From an uncultured Desulfatitalea sp. (lineage in GTDB: Bacteria > Desulfobacterota > Desulfobacteria > Desulfobacterales > Desulfosarcinaceae): a stretch of DNA of 64,000 nt. Each line of letters opens with the position of its first letter. The stretch's first letter is position 1. Below, piece after piece: positions 48,738-57,137 of the stretch. The stretch is taken from positions 818,749 to 882,748 of the forward strand of contig CALMNL010000004.1 of NCBI GenBank assembly GCA_937868765.1. The letters are read 5' to 3'. The notes below the pieces were generated by a model that had not been told where the DNA came from, did not search any database, and saw only the letters and a list, made by a program, of their open reading frames with translations. The position numbers were made by a program, and so were the translations under genes.

Positions 48738-50180
48738 CTACTCCAGCTGATATTTTTTCAGCCTGTGGCGCAGGGTGTTGCGGCTGATGCCGAGCATTCT
48801 GGCGGCCTTGACCTGGTTGTGGCCACTGTCTTCCAGGGCCTGACGAATGATTGTCTCCTCTACCAATTCGATGATGTTGGCGTGAACATCGTGTTTGGAG
48901 AGGCGCACGATCTCCGGCAGCAAGGCTTGAAGCTTTTCTTTTAACTGATTCATCAAATGCGGCCGACTCTCGGCAGGAGCCGGGATTTCCCTGGAAGCCT
49001 CCGCCAATTCGATATGGGTTGGGGAGAGCACTTCCCCGTCGCATAGGATTACGGCCCGACGGATGCAGTTTTCCAGTTCGCGGACATTCCCCGGCCAGGC
49101 ATACTGCCGGAACATGTCCAGGACGGCTTCGGAGACATGGTGAATCGGTTTGGCGTATTCACGGCTGAAGCGCTGCACGAAACAATCCACCAGATCGGGA
49201 ATATCTTCGATTCTCTCCCTGAGCGGCGGCATATGAATGGTGATGACCTTCAAGCGCCAGAATAAATCCTCGCGAAAACGGCCGCTGAGCACTTCCCCGG
49301 CAAGGTCCTTGTTGGTGGCGGCGATGATGCGGGCGTCCACGCGCAGGGTCTCTTTTCCGCCCACCCGCTCGAACTCGCCCTCCTGCAATACACGCAGCAG
49401 CTTGGCCTGCAGGGCCATCGACATGTCGCCGATTTCGTCCAGAAAACAAGTGCCGCCGTCGCAGCGCTCGATCTTGCCCAATTTGAGGCGTTGCGCCCCG
49501 GTGAAGGCACCCGGCTCATAACCGAACAATTCGCTTTCGAATAGATTTTCCGGGATAGCCGCGCAATTGATCGCCATGAAAGGACCTTCTTTGCGGCGGC
49601 TGTGGTGATAGATCGCCTTGGCCGCCATTTCCTTGCCGGTCCCGCTTTCCCCGGTGATCAAAACGGAGACATCCTTTTCGGCGACCCGGCCGATGATTTT
49701 ATAGACGGCCTGCATGCTCTTGCTCCGGCCGATGATTCGAATCACGCCTTTCGGGGCAGGGATCGGGGCTTGCGCCCCGGCAGCGGCATCGGGCAGATGC
49801 ACCACTTCCTGCATGCGCTGATTGAGTTCCAGGGCTTCGGCGACGATGCGGCTGAGTTCTTCGCGTTCAAACGGTTTGTTCAGATAATCGTAAGCCCCCC
49901 GCTTCATGGCTTCGATGGCGGTATCGGTGTTGCCGTAGGCGGTCATGATGATGACCGGCGTGTTCACTTGCGCGGCCTTGATCTGCTTTAAGGTGTCCAG
50001 GCCGTTAAGCTCCGGCATTTTGTAGTCCAACAGAATCAGATCGAAACGTTTACGGGAAATCGCTTCCATGGCCGCCCGGCCGTTCAAGCAAGCGGTGACC
50101 GCGTATCCCTTTCGCTTAAAGAAGCGACTGAGGAAGTGATTCAAACCCTCGTCATCATCGATCAGCAGTATCTCTTCCAT
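48738..50180 (-). CDS. NtrC-family sigma-54-dependent response regulator
   Basis: 480 residues. Receiver with LIDDDE, phospho-Asp in LILLDYKMP (about residue 51), MTAYGN and NKPFE. AAA+ domain with Walker A GESGTGKE, GAFTGA and GGTCFLDEIG. Fis HTH NQVKAARMLGISRNTLRHRLKKYQL at the C-terminus. The start overlaps the end of the upstream histidine kinase gene by 26 bases, so the two form a cognate pair. Likely targets are within the same leftward cluster or elsewhere. Confidence 0.94.
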   Translation of the reverse strand: MEEILLIDDDEGLNHFLSRFFKRKGYAVTACLNGRAAMEAISRKRFDLILLDYKMPELNGLDTLKQIKAAQVNTPVIIMTAYGNTDTAIEAMKRGAYDYLNKPFEREELSRIVAEALELNQRMQEVVHLPDAAAGAQAPIPAPKGVIRIIGRSKSMQAVYKIIGRVAEKDVSVLITGESGTGKEMAAKAIYHHSRRKEGPFMAINCAAIPENLFESELFGYEPGAFTGAQRLKLGKIERCDGGTCFLDEIGDMSMALQAKLLRVLQEGEFERVGGKETLRVDARIIAATNKDLAGEVLSGRFREDLFWRLKVITIHMPPLRERIEDIPDLVDCFVQRFSREYAKPIHHVSEAVLDMFRQYAWPGNVRELENCIRRAVILCDGEVLSPTHIELAEASREIPAPAESRPHLMNQLKEKLQALLPEIVRLSKHDVHANIIELVEETIIRQALEDSGHNQVKAARMLGISRNTLRHRLKKYQLE

Positions 50181-52032
50181 ACGTTTCCGGCATTTTAGGA
50201 GTGATTGGTAAAAACAATGAAAACAGGGTGCCTTCGTTCAACCGGCTCCGGACCCGGATTTCACCTTCGTGCCGTTTGATGGTATTCAAGACCATGGGCA
50301 GCCCCAGCCCGGAACCGGTCGGTTTGGTCGTAAAAAACGGATCGAAGATCACATCGAGGTGTTCCTCGGGAATTCCGGCGCCGCTATCCTGGATATCGAT
50401 GCGCACGCAAGGCTTGGTCTCGTCTGCGATTCGCAGGGTGTCCGCCATAGCCGTGACCGCGATGTGTCCGCCGCGTTGGCTCGCCTCCAGGGCGTTGATC
50501 AGCAGGTTGATCAACGCCTCTTCCAACAGTTTTTTATCGGCGGCGATGCCGGGCAGCGGTTCCCGCAGATCCATCTGCAACACGCACTCCTGCTTGTTGG
50601 CCAGCGGTTTTATGATGGAAACCACGTCATGGATGAGTCCGGCGGTATCTATTTTGGAGAAAAAGAGGTCTTTGGGCTTGGTGAAATCGAGCAGCCGGTT
50701 GATGGCGGTTTCGATGCGTGCGATTTGTCCCATGGCGACCATGAAATCCTGCGCATATTCAGGAGATATCTCGATTTCCGTCTCCACCGATTCCAAAAAC
50801 AGCTTGAGCGAGGTCAGGGGCGTGCGGATTTCATGGGCGACCGCCGCGCCCAGGCGTCCCAGCGCAGCGAACTTTTCCGATCGTTCGGCAATGAGCTTGA
50901 ACTGCTTGAGGGTATGACCGGTTTTCTCCAATTCGGCTTCCTTGAGGTTGCATTGCTGTTCCAGGCTGTCCTGGCGCTCCCGAATCTTAAGCGCCATGTT
51001 GGCAAAGGCCCGGCACAGGATGCCGATCTCGTCGCCGCGCCGGGTGCCCACAAGGTCCGTTGCGATCGGGTCGTGGTCCGTGTTGGCCAGTGTGTGCGCC
51101 GACCGGCTCAGGGTCCGGATGGGACCGACGATGTGATGGGAGATCACCCAAATGAGCACGAAGGTACTGCTCGAAGCCAGCAGCAGCGTGAGATAGATAT
51201 ATTTTTTGAGCTTCTCGAGATCTTGGAAGGCTTCCGCGCGGTCCTGCTCCACCACGAGGTACCAATCGGTGCCGCCGATTTTCTGGGAGAACCCCAACAC
51301 TTCTATACCGCGATAATCCAGGTAGGTTCTGGAGCGATCGCGAGTGCCGAAGATGTTCTTAAAGCTGTCCGATTGGGATATGTTTTCCGATAAGATTCGC
51401 TCCGGCTCCTTGTGCGCCAGGAAGGCACCGTCGCTGTCCACCAGGTAGCATTCGCCGGTTTGGCCCAGGGAGACGCTCAGGATCGTGTAAATGATATTGT
51501 TGGTGCCCACCGTCCCCAGAACCGTTCCGATGCGCGCCCCCGAATTGAAAATGGGCGCGGCAATCTGAAAGATCGATTCCCGCTCTTCGTCGAGATAGAT
51601 AATTTTGGTCAGCACCGGACTTTCCGGCCCGCCGATCTCCTCCCAAGAGGTGCTGCCGGCAAAATCGTGCGTCGTCGACGTGCTGACGATCACTTGGTCG
51701 GAGGCGGACAGGATCGTCAAATTTTTATAAACACCGTAATGCTTCTGGATCAGGCTCAAATAGGGAGCGATGGCGGTCGCATCCATGGATTGGACAATGG
51801 AGGTGCCGGCGATCACCTGCAAATCCTGTTTGCGTTCCTCCAGCCAGCGTTCGAGAATAGCGCCTTTGTCGGCGCCGATATTTTCAAGTTGCCGCAGCAC
51901 CAGGCTCTTGATCAAACGCTCGGTATTCCGGATGGAAAAGAAGCCGATGGCGATCAAAGGCACCAGTGTCAGGGCAAGGAAGAGAAACACCAGTTTGGTG
52001 CGCAACGTAAGAATGGATAAAATGTAATGCAA
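50155..52032 (-). CDS. Cache-HAMP histidine kinase
   Basis: About 625 residues if started at TTG 52032 (LHYILSIL), with GGGAG upstream and 20 bases after the previous stop; the frame extends to 52176 but that would overlap the PEP-binding gene by 124 bases. Helix at about 14-34, then a double-Cache-like periplasmic domain to about 275, second helix, HAMP, coiled linker, HisKA GAAVAHEIRTPLTSLKL, N box NLLINALEAS, DSGAGIP and GSGLGLPMV. Sensor partner of the overlapping NtrC-type regulator. Confidence 0.92.
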   Translation of the reverse strand: MHYILSILTLRTKLVFLFLALTLVPLIAIGFFSIRNTERLIKSLVLRQLENIGADKGAILERWLEERKQDLQVIAGTSIVQSMDATAIAPYLSLIQKHYGVYKNLTILSASDQVIVSTSTTHDFAGSTSWEEIGGPESPVLTKIIYLDEERESIFQIAAPIFNSGARIGTVLGTVGTNNIIYTILSVSLGQTGECYLVDSDGAFLAHKEPERILSENISQSDSFKNIFGTRDRSRTYLDYRGIEVLGFSQKIGGTDWYLVVEQDRAEAFQDLEKLKKYIYLTLLLASSSTFVLIWVISHHIVGPIRTLSRSAHTLANTDHDPIATDLVGTRRGDEIGILCRAFANMALKIRERQDSLEQQCNLKEAELEKTGHTLKQFKLIAERSEKFAALGRLGAAVAHEIRTPLTSLKLFLESVETEIEISPEYAQDFMVAMGQIARIETAINRLLDFTKPKDLFFSKIDTAGLIHDVVSIIKPLANKQECVLQMDLREPLPGIAADKKLLEEALINLLINALEASQRGGHIAVTAMADTLRIADETKPCVRIDIQDSGAGIPEEHLDVIFDPFFTTKPTGSGLGLPMVLNTIKRHEGEIRVRSRLNEGTLFSLFLPITPKMPETYGRDTADR

Positions 52033-52052: not shown

Positions 52053-54641
52053 TTACCGCCGATAGCAGACCATCTGCTGGGTATTGATGTCGGATTGCAG
52101 GATCAATTGGGTCCCGTCCATCGAACAGAGCTTGACCACGGGCTCGAAACGTTCTTGCCCGGGAAAAAGATCGCATAAGTTATTGGGAAGCGTGTCCAGC
52201 CAGGCCGGGTCAATGATCACGCCCTCTCTTTCAGGGTAGACCGCCGCGTAGAAGATGTTGGTTTCGGTCAAGTCGTGAAAAAAATGGGTGCCGAACGACA
52301 GATCCGGTATCAGTCCGCCGGCCCGATAACTGATTTCCACCAACGCCGCCATGTGATTGATTTCCGAAAAGGTGACGGGAACGCCCATGGCCGGCGTTTG
52401 CGTTCCCCACCGTCCCGGTCCGATGAGCATGGTGGGGCGGCTCCGGCGGTCGGCATAGCGGCGGTTCAACTTGCCGATCAGGCGGGCCACGCTGTACTTG
52501 TCGGAGGTGGAAAGCGCCGCGTATCGGGCCGGATCGACCCATATGATGCCGACAATGGGCATGTATATATTGCCGCCCATGAAATTGCCCAGGGTCTGGA
52601 TGAAGATATCGGCCGCCGGAATCTGCTCGGGCGGTGCCGCATCGGCGCGTCCACCGAAGGTTTGAAAGGGTCGGCATTGCAGCAGATTCACCTGGATCTC
52701 GTCGGCCTGGTTGTAGTTGACGGTGAACTCGATCTCCACCGCATGGCCGTAGGCCTGCTCGAGGCGTTGCAGCATGGCCGCCATGAATTCAATGAAGCGG
52801 GTTTGGGATAAAAAGGGATCGAAGGTCAAGATCCATTGAACCTGCGGCGGTCCACCCTCCTTTTGCCCGTAAGGCTGCGCCGGTTCCTCCCGCACGGCCA
52901 GGGCTTCCAGGCGCAGACCGGGATTTTTTGCGATCAATTCTCTCAAAGAGATCGTCTGCAGCTCATTTTCTTCCAGGTTCAGGCAGTCTACGTGGTGCTG
53001 GGAATATTTCCTTAAATCCCATATGCCGGAAAGCGGTTTCACGATGGGATCATCCATGGCCACGATGCGCGGATAGTCGTCTTCGACCCGGTTGACCGCG
53101 CGGGTCCCCAACCCCATGACGATGCGCAACATGCCGGCCCGGGGGTCCATGCGTTCTTTCCATACATAGGGGTTGTGGGACAGGCCCACCCCGGCCAGTT
53201 CGGGGAAAAAATAGTTCTGGCGATAGCTGCCCGACACCCGTTGCACCAATATGGCCATCTGTTCGTCCAGATGGTCGAGACCGCGCTGGCGCCGGTAGGC
53301 CAGGGCATCCTCGTTCATCGCGCTGGCATAGATTCGCTTGACCGCTTCTTCGAAGCGCTCGTAGCGTTTTTCCGGCGGCCCCTGGTTGACGCAAAAGAAG
53401 CTTTCATACTTGCCGGCAAAGGCGCTGCCATAGGCATCTTCCAATAGACTGCTGGAGCGCGCGATGATCGGAGACTGTCCGAAGTATTGCAGCATGGTCT
53501 GAAAGCGTTCCCGGATGTGCTCGGGGAAGCTGCCCTGGAGCATATTAGTTTTCAACTCGGCGGCTTTTTCGAAATAGCCCGCCTCGGTCTTATGGGCCAT
53601 GAAAAGCTTCCACCAGCCGTTCTGGACGATATAGGAATAGAATACATCCGAACCGATGAAAAACGAATCGTGCGGTTCGAGGAACCGCGACCATTGCATG
53701 TCTTTTGCGTGCATCAGGATTTTTCTGGCCAAAAGCATTCCCAGGGCTTTTCCGCCGATGAATCCGGAGCCGATCAAGCGCTCCTTGAGCTGAAGCAGGT
53801 CCTCCAGGACGAGAAATTGACGGATCATCGCAAGCATTTTTTTATTTCGACTGAGCACCAGTCGGGCGAGTTGCTCGACTTTGTCCACTGTCTCCGAAAC
53901 GCTGGCTTTGTTGAAGATCAGGCTCTCGGCTTGAATGAAAAGATGATCCCAGTAATCGAGAATGCGATGGGCCGGGGCCGATTTTTCCTGCAAGAGATGG
54001 GAAAACAGTTGGGATGCCTCGACGCTGTTGATCACCGGCACGAGATGATCCCGTTCCTTGATGTGGGGGAAAAACATGGTGGGCGAATAGCGGTCCTGAA
54101 TCTTGATCGGGTGAATGCATAACTTGCGGTGGTAAGTGTACACATCGATGAGGACCTGGGTGGTTTCGCGAATCCGAGCAATGGCTTTATAGGAATGGTG
54201 GTTCCTCAGGATCGCGAAATAGGCGGTGGTGTTCAATTCGAAAAGATAGGGGCAGGTGACGAAGAAGAAGTTGACGATCATCAGGTCCGAGGCCCATTCA
54301 TGGAGCAGATCGGACAAGGAATCAAACACGTAAAAAATATCCCGCCCTTCCCGGGTGATGATGTCGTGGACCTGAGATGAAAACGATTCGAATCCAGCCG
54401 CCACATTCAGCGAGTAGATGCGCAGGTTGGGGCGCTGCTCCAGCAAGGGCGCGTGACGGCCGAAACGCAGGTATACCAGCGGTTCATGGTTGGTCAGGGC
54501 ATGGGTGGCGAAATAGGAAACCAGTTTTCGATAGGCATCGATGGTGTCCACCTGCCAGACGACATTGTCTCCTCTGCGCAGGTGATCGATAATGCGATCG
54601 AGACTTTTCCAGCCCGTACTGACATGGGCGTAATAGGCCAT
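52053..54641 (-). CDS. Degenerate KaiC/RecA-like domain fused to PEP/pyruvate-binding domain
   Basis: 862 residues. The first 195 have the layout of KaiC/RadA ATPases: STGWKSLDRIIDHLRRGDNVVWQV (compare TGxxxLDxxLGGGxxxG), EPLVYLRF, and Walker-B-like IFYVFDSLSDLL; but the P-loop GxxxxGKT is missing (VDTIDAYRKL). From about residue 290 it is like the N-terminal nucleotide-binding half of pyruvate phosphate dikinase/PEP synthase: GSGFIGGKALGMLLAR, IIARSSSLLEDAYGSAFAGKYESFF, AILVQRVSG, QCRPFQ. The central phospho-His domain and PEP barrel are absent. It precedes a histidine kinase gene by about 20 bases, so a signalling or regulatory role is more likely than metabolism. Confidence 0.78.
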   Translation of the reverse strand: MAYYAHVSTGWKSLDRIIDHLRRGDNVVWQVDTIDAYRKLVSYFATHALTNHEPLVYLRFGRHAPLLEQRPNLRIYSLNVAAGFESFSSQVHDIITREGRDIFYVFDSLSDLLHEWASDLMIVNFFFVTCPYLFELNTTAYFAILRNHHSYKAIARIRETTQVLIDVYTYHRKLCIHPIKIQDRYSPTMFFPHIKERDHLVPVINSVEASQLFSHLLQEKSAPAHRILDYWDHLFIQAESLIFNKASVSETVDKVEQLARLVLSRNKKMLAMIRQFLVLEDLLQLKERLIGSGFIGGKALGMLLARKILMHAKDMQWSRFLEPHDSFFIGSDVFYSYIVQNGWWKLFMAHKTEAGYFEKAAELKTNMLQGSFPEHIRERFQTMLQYFGQSPIIARSSSLLEDAYGSAFAGKYESFFCVNQGPPEKRYERFEEAVKRIYASAMNEDALAYRRQRGLDHLDEQMAILVQRVSGSYRQNYFFPELAGVGLSHNPYVWKERMDPRAGMLRIVMGLGTRAVNRVEDDYPRIVAMDDPIVKPLSGIWDLRKYSQHHVDCLNLEENELQTISLRELIAKNPGLRLEALAVREEPAQPYGQKEGGPPQVQWILTFDPFLSQTRFIEFMAAMLQRLEQAYGHAVEIEFTVNYNQADEIQVNLLQCRPFQTFGGRADAAPPEQIPAADIFIQTLGNFMGGNIYMPIVGIIWVDPARYAALSTSDKYSVARLIGKLNRRYADRRSRPTMLIGPGRWGTQTPAMGVPVTFSEINHMAALVEISYRAGGLIPDLSFGTHFFHDLTETNIFYAAVYPEREGVIIDPAWLDTLPNNLCDLFPGQERFEPVVKLCSMDGTQLILQSDINTQQMVCYRR

Positions 54642-54761: not shown

Positions 54762-56263
<1,502 letters not shown>

Positions 56264-56318: not shown

Positions 56319-56900
56319 TCATTTACCGACCCACTCGATGACTCGCTTTCTCTCCCGTTTAGGGGCCGTATAATCTTCAATCAGGCGCTCACCGATTTTC
56401 TGGTCGATGTATTCTTCCGTAAGAGAGCGCGTCCTGGGTTCTACCGACGACTTCATCCGGTAATAATGAAAGTCTTCGGGTCCGATCCCCTCCCATCCGA
56501 TGAATTCGCTTTCCAGTTCGGACAGGCTGTCGTATCCCGCCCCGTAAATTTTCAGCTTGGAAAAGAACGGCTGCGGACTGTGCTGATTGATCAATACCGC
56601 GAAATGGGTCGGAAAGACCGGATCGCCGATGACGAGTAAGTACTTCTCCTTGAATTTGAGAATATTGTAGTTCGTCGGAATCTTCTCTTTTTCAACCGGA
56701 ACGAAATGCTCCTTCAGGATCGTGCCGGCCTCGACATCGTCCACGTCTTCGACCATCATGATGTCCCGGCACTTGAAAAAGCCCATGACATACAAGGCCA
56801 AACCGAAGTTGCCGACATGTTCGTAAATCGGATGTTCACGGCCGCAGATCCGGCTGACATCGTTCAGTCTTTCAGAGATGAAAAGCCATTCACGATCCAT
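56319..56900 (-). CDS. Uncharacterised protein
   Basis: 193 residues with a strong site AAAGGAGG before ATG 56900. Mixed alpha/beta composition, no signal peptide or membrane segment: FGLALYVMGFFKCRDIMMVEDVDDVEAGTIL, KEKYLLVIGDPVFPTHFAVLI, SELESEFIGWEGIGPEDFHYYRM. I recognise no family. It lies 201 bases upstream of gdhA in the same direction and may belong to that transcription unit. Confidence 0.7.
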   Translation of the reverse strand: MDREWLFISERLNDVSRICGREHPIYEHVGNFGLALYVMGFFKCRDIMMVEDVDDVEAGTILKEHFVPVEKEKIPTNYNILKFKEKYLLVIGDPVFPTHFAVLINQHSPQPFFSKLKIYGAGYDSLSELESEFIGWEGIGPEDFHYYRMKSSVEPRTRSLTEEYIDQKIGERLIEDYTAPKRERKRVIEWVGK

Positions 56901-57137
56901 GGTTCCTCCTTTGTTTCATGCTCCTGATCCGAGCGGTTTGCCGGTGTTGAATCAATGTTTTTTGCTGTCGCAACGGCTTGCAACACTGTTCAGCAAGGGA
57001 TATGCCGCCTCGGGCGTCCGCCCCTAAAAATTTATTACCGATTGAATTTTAAGGATTAATAGGTCCGATGAGAAAAATGGTTATGGATGGCCGGGATGCA
57101 GCGCCCTGTTCAAATCTTGAGCAGCACTGGTGAAATA

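Follow-up and report, generated by a model that had tools for sequence, protein, structure and literature searches.

A gene on the minus strand of a 64,000-nucleotide window from an uncultured Desulfatitalea sp. (the window being the whole stretch of DNA analysed) encodes a protein, given the working name PEPX, in which a KaiC-like domain lacking its nucleotide-binding loop is joined to the ATP-grasp domain of PEP synthase and pyruvate phosphate dikinase (PPDK) and to a conserved C-terminal domain that belongs to no known family. The tie of PEPX to glutamate genes is strong: glutamate dehydrogenase (GDH) or glutamate synthase (GOGAT) genes are adjacent in 43 of 49 unique fusion loci. We hold with moderate confidence that PEPX is an ATP-dependent enzyme that regulates glutamate synthesis and ammonium assimilation, with the dead KaiC domain as its sensor. 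This reading is favoured because of the conserved glutamate-gene linkage, a sigma-54 site ahead of the cluster, and the invariant motifs of the ATP-grasp and C-terminal domains. Coordinates are collected in Table 1.

Table 1. Features of the PEPX cluster, in window positions unless a contig is named, and the basis of each assignment.
Feature	Position	Strand	Basis
PEPX, iKaiC-like/ATP-grasp (PPDK_N)/C-terminal-domain protein gene	52053..54641	minus	ATG start, 862 aa
KaiC/RecA-fold domain without P-loop, residues 1-205 (predicted fold)	54027..54641	minus	Foldseek FlaH/KaiC, hhalign vs. KaiC, conservation in 99 homologs
QVDTIDAY, residues 30-37, at the site of the Walker A loop in KaiC proteins; loop absent	54531..54554	minus	Profile alignment to KaiC, ortholog alignment
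PPDK_N ATP-grasp domain, residues 290-672	52626..53774	minus	Pfam PF01326 E 1e-48; Foldseek 5hv6; ortholog alignment
Conserved C-terminal domain without known family or fold, residues 673-862	52056..52625	minus	Pfam, AlphaFold2, Foldseek, profile comparison
GPGRWG motif, residues 741-746	52404..52421	minus	97-100% conserved across 95 sequences, receiver-type paralogs among them
SFGTHF motif, residues 782-787	52281..52298	minus	S782, G784, H786, F787 near-invariant, 98-100% in 95 sequences
gdhA, NADP-type glutamate dehydrogenase	54762..56117	minus	NF006929, 742 bits vs. cut-off 536
p193, conserved 193-aa protein, first gene of the cluster	56319..56900	minus	Kept beside gdhA in close relatives
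-24/-12 sigma-54-type site, CGGCATATCCCTTGCT	56992..57007	minus	92 bp before the p193 start codon (ATG)
dCache-HAMP-HisKA-HATPase histidine kinase	50155..52032	minus	Pfam; TTG at 52032, 20 nt past the PEPX stop, as the likely start
NtrC-type sigma-54 response regulator, REC-AAA-HTH_8	48738..50180	minus	Pfam; TIGR01818 ntrC 493 bits
L002, second core-family member, 1026 aa, two receiver-like domains	G000:C4:290709-295277, same genome		Pfam Response_reg E 2e-9

The original prediction, which named no strand, described a protein with RecA-fold landmarks and no nucleotide-binding loop. Both landmarks were located, STGWKSLD at residues 8-15 and YVFDSLSDLL at residues 104-113. The sole Pfam domain in the protein is PPDK_N (residues 295-672, E 1e-48), and Pfam found none in residues 1-290. 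An AlphaFold2 model built with 25 orthologs (mean pLDDT 82; mostly 82-93 in the N-terminal domain) nevertheless gave that region a RecA/KaiC-like fold, the outcome on which the original prediction had staked its account of the N-terminus. The best PDB fold match found with Foldseek was FlaH (4yds, E 1.7e-9, TM 0.68 of target), and many KaiC chains also matched, at TM 0.70 of the C1 domain; E values for FlaH and KaiC ranged from 1e-9 to 1e-7. Against KaiC proteins of related genomes, the N-domain family profile scored hhalign probabilities of 95.7-97.4%, compared with 0.2% for an unrelated control. At the level of the predicted structure, a KaiC/RecA core fold in residues 1-205 is confirmed.

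The Walker A P-loop of an active ATPase (GxxGxGK[ST]) is absent from this fold: all 99 homologs lack GK[ST] in the corresponding region, so the loss is a property of the family and not a local event. The N-terminal KaiC fold is thereby shown to be unable to hold ATP by a P-loop. This separates it from FlaH/ArlH, the archaellum KaiC-like protein that is its best single fold match, whose structure was solved with ATP and Mg. The domain family carries the signature GDN[VI][VIL]W and conserves C130-P131, H149, Q162, K180 and R184, which, with G10, D15, D25-N26, W116 and F125, are common to the two architectures in which it occurs, the PPDK_N fusion and a shorter HTH-cupin protein. The Pfam KaiC model recognised no member of the dead-KaiC family above its cut-off. 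One Pfam hint that the domain might be MEDS (PF14417) was discarded: 7 of 26 members gave hits, all sub-threshold (best E 3e-4), PEPX itself had no match, and hhalign gave 0.5%. Matches to RPA32 in a PDB sequence search (E 0.07) found no support in the fold search. The same genome also encodes two genuine MEDS-domain proteins (L209, L215), which score above the Pfam cut-off and are separate from the dead-KaiC family.

P-loop-less KaiC-like domains have been published as "iKaiC", described in PMC5847659 (citing Makarova et al., 2017) as belonging to archaeal signalling proteins, with MEDS (PF14417) and DUF835 as examples. The PEPX domain resembles them in its KaiC fold, its missing P-loop and its use as an interchangeable module of signalling proteins. 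It differs from the archaeal iKaiC domains described there in that its family is bacterial, has its own signature (GDNVVW/TCPxL), falls outside MEDS in the tests applied, is fused to PPDK_N or HTH-cupin, and is tied to glutamate genes.

The ATP-grasp domain resembles those of PEP synthase, PPDK and rifampin phosphotransferase in sequence, fold and active-site motifs; Foldseek matches it to the ATP domain of 5hv6, a rifampin phosphotransferase structure (TM 0.70 of target). Across all 25 orthologs, down to 40% identity, residues GGK298, R395-S-S, E401-D402, G410, E638, Q655 and R657 do not vary, and PEPX carries the K, R, D/E-x-E and QxRP residues that mark the ATP-grasp site of PEP synthase and PPDK. 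Judged from the alignment, the ATP-binding motifs are shown to be intact; these residues presumably bind ATP, a role that we take from established knowledge of PPDK and PEP synthase. Where PEP synthase, PPDK and rifampin phosphotransferase have a phospho-His swivelling domain or a PEP/pyruvate TIM barrel, PEPX has neither, and a C-terminal domain without known fold stands in their stead. For the phospho-His domain (PF00391), Pfam gave no match, hhalign 0.2%, and the C-terminal model had no PDB match; for the barrel (PF02896), Pfam gave no match across the 862 aa, and the remainder of the protein is a 190-aa domain of another fold. The proposal that PEPX keeps the PPDK N-domain without its phospho-His and PEP partners thus held up.

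Those ~190 C-terminal residues, which the original prediction did not describe, are conserved, resemble an active site, and belong to no known family. Their pattern, GPGRWG...E...SxGxHF, comprises G741-P-G-R-W-G, E769, S782, G784, H786 and F787, each 97-100% conserved in 95 sequences, and on this pattern His786 is a candidate acceptor or catalytic residue. AlphaFold2 modelled the domain confidently from 85 sequences (pLDDT 88.8, pTM 0.89). Pfam found nothing above chance in 85 members, Foldseek of the model against the PDB gave at best E 0.036 (prob 0.28, TM mostly < 0.3), and a sequence profile search of the PDB gave no match better than E 0.05. A hidden PEP-utilizer His domain, suggested by SFGTHFFHDL...GI with spacing like TSHAA...GIP, was rejected by hhalign (0.2%) and by Foldseek on the confident model. 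With only one of the three classical domains of PEP synthase present, PEPX could be a degenerate, non-catalytic leftover of that enzyme kept as a scaffold. We regard this as highly improbable, given that the ATP-grasp active site is invariant across the orthologs and that the paralogs conserve the C-terminal domain, which is no PEP synthase remnant.

The ATP-grasp and C-terminal domains form a core that carries three different N-termini: the dead KaiC domain, receiver-like pairs, and a third kind in 782-aa proteins. The C-terminus of PEPX is homologous to those of the 1026-aa receiver-type paralog and the 782-aa type. Proteins of the REC-REC-PPDK_N type, such as L002 and the Parabacteroides "PEP/pyruvate-binding domain-containing protein" WP_041525632.1, have the same ATP-grasp and GPGRWG core and lie beside gdhA in several lineages; their input is a receiver-like pair, whereas that of PEPX is dead KaiC. 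In the present genome, a second gdhA follows immediately after L002. Proteins of ~440 aa with HTH_3 and cupin domains likewise begin with the dead KaiC domain (L003 and L221 in the same genome, and many in the phylum). This domain is present in 147 of 395 sampled Desulfobacterota genomes, where the longer reading frames that carry it are fusions to PPDK_N. One genome has the fusion gene broken into two overlapping reading frames at about residues 125-131 (L017:7977-10641, L037), through a frameshift or an assembly error.

Interchangeable inputs on one core look like signal control, which speaks against a second alternative, that PEPX is a metabolic enzyme and not a regulator: an ATP-grasp ligase or dikinase, controlled allosterically by its N-domain, that makes or consumes a glutamate-node metabolite. 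That alternative would accommodate the intact ATP-grasp residues, the invariant polar residues of the C-terminal domain, the GDH/GOGAT linkage, and the sharing of the ATP-grasp domain with PigC/RedH ligases. PEPX, however, is without a known substrate domain, both the His domain and the PEP barrel being missing, and we find the metabolic-enzyme reading somewhat doubtful.

To place the fusion in its genomic setting, neighbour genes were identified by tblastn at 49 unique fusion loci with flanks; the neighbourhoods are MAG-based and may be incomplete, and loci were sampled partly by size of the assembled piece. A GDH gene adjoins the fusion in 35 of the 49. It lies within ~4 kb and usually < 1.8 kb, may be upstream or downstream and on either strand relative to the fusion, and belongs to one of two GDH classes ~30% mutually identical. 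Glutamate synthase genes (PF01645, GATase/GXGXG) adjoin eight further loci, six have neither GDH nor GOGAT in the examined flank, and NrpR stands beside eight of the 49. GDH was found in 1 of 78 control loci, whose windows were shorter (~3.3 kb), and that one is an iKaiC-HTH-cupin locus. A quick-search tree of the fusion proteins from 38 of the 49 loci requires at least 14 changes of neighbour label (GDH class and orientation, GOGAT, or none); descent of a single ancestral block therefore fails to explain the association. In one relative a deoxyhypusine-synthase-family gene (PF01916; L085:6985-7995) lies between the fusion gene and gdhA. One contig (G410:C59) carries two fusion-gene copies ~12 kb apart (L081/L082), with glutamate synthase genes adjoining one of them.

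The other carriers of these domains show related neighbourhoods. Receiver-type paralogs adjoin gdhA in 5 of 20 sampled loci, L002 included, and do not in the other 15. They stand beside gdhA in two Bacteroidota, Parabacteroides (195 bp, divergent) and Phocaeicola, and the 782-aa type is beside GDH in the single locus examined. A Glu_synthase-domain gene adjoins iKaiC-HTH-cupin genes in 12 of 20 loci (L097-L114 and L222-L240 are among the group). One HTH-cupin locus (L239) has GDH and a PEPX-type gene nearby. Genomic neighbourhood is a sign of a shared process, not of chemistry, ligand or target; because the gene stays by glutamate-making genes across many lineages, it probably helps control ammonium assimilation. 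We found no described PEP/pyruvate-binding protein tied to GDH in the open-access literature searched.

In the direction of transcription the cluster runs p193, gdhA, PEPX, dCache-HAMP histidine kinase and NtrC-type regulator; open reading frames and Pfam agree with the earlier description of gdhA directly upstream and a Cache kinase and NtrC-like regulator directly downstream. The listed start of the kinase frame (52176) overlaps PEPX, and most ortholog alignments begin at residue 48-49 or later. With 493 bits, the regulator falls below the TIGR01818 equivalog cut-off of 558.6, and the kinase input is dCache and not PAS, in contrast to the NtrB/NtrC nitrogen two-component system. p193 had nothing above cut-off in Pfam, NCBIfam or the PDB. 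A sigma-54 site is found at the equivalent place before p193-gdhA in 11 of 12 close-relative loci with at most 3 mismatches, and in 9 of 12 with at most 2, compared to 3.9% of random 300-bp windows. Nitrogen metabolism in D. vulgaris is under sigma-54 regulators (PMC4641369; PMC3333781), which serves here as an analogy only.

The immediate proximity of the kinase had led to the proposal that PEPX is a metabolic sensor signalling directly into the Cache kinase/NtrC pair. The sensory part of that proposal fits the published iKaiC domains, and the pair does recur, as the proposal required of at least some relatives, being linked in 14 of 49 unique ones (among them three ~42% identical lineages), with other sigma-54 regulators adjacent in ~10 more. 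On the other side, 35 of the 49 loci have no such kinase nearby and most of these retain GDH or GOGAT, making glutamate synthesis the constant partner; in Bacteroidota, receiver-domain versions of the core lie beside gdhA where this kinase is missing; and the kinase has a dCache sensor of its own. We therefore consider direct input into the kinase unlikely. Together with the sigma-54 promoter, the pair has the look of transcriptional control that a single lineage exerts over these glutamate genes.

If PEPX is instead a regulatory enzyme of glutamate synthesis, its dead KaiC domain would sense nitrogen or carbon status, perhaps through 2-oxoglutarate, glutamine, glutamate or adenylate. The ATP-grasp domain would spend ATP, charging or modifying something via the C-terminal domain, with His786 as a candidate acceptor, in the manner of the half-reactions of PEP synthase and PPDK. 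The outcome may be control over GDH/GOGAT activity or over a regulator of the GDH/GOGAT genes; in Desulfobacterales the same cluster would also be under sigma-54, plausibly via the adjacent dCache kinase and NtrC. More tentatively, PEPX could possibly represent a new class of signal-transduction enzyme, at least in Desulfobacterota and Bacteroidota, in which an ATP-grasp "half-dikinase" passes phosphate or AMP to a new acceptor or catalytic domain that modifies GDH or glutamate synthase, while interchangeable inputs (P-loop-less KaiC, receivers) report nitrogen or carbon status.

To our knowledge, the control of ammonium assimilation by GDH versus GS/GOGAT is poorly understood in sulfate reducers and in gut Bacteroidota. 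The present analysis nominates a widespread, unnamed protein family as part of that control. It also introduces a dead-KaiC sensor module from bacteria, along with a conserved domain without known fold, both of which are easily expressed and tested.
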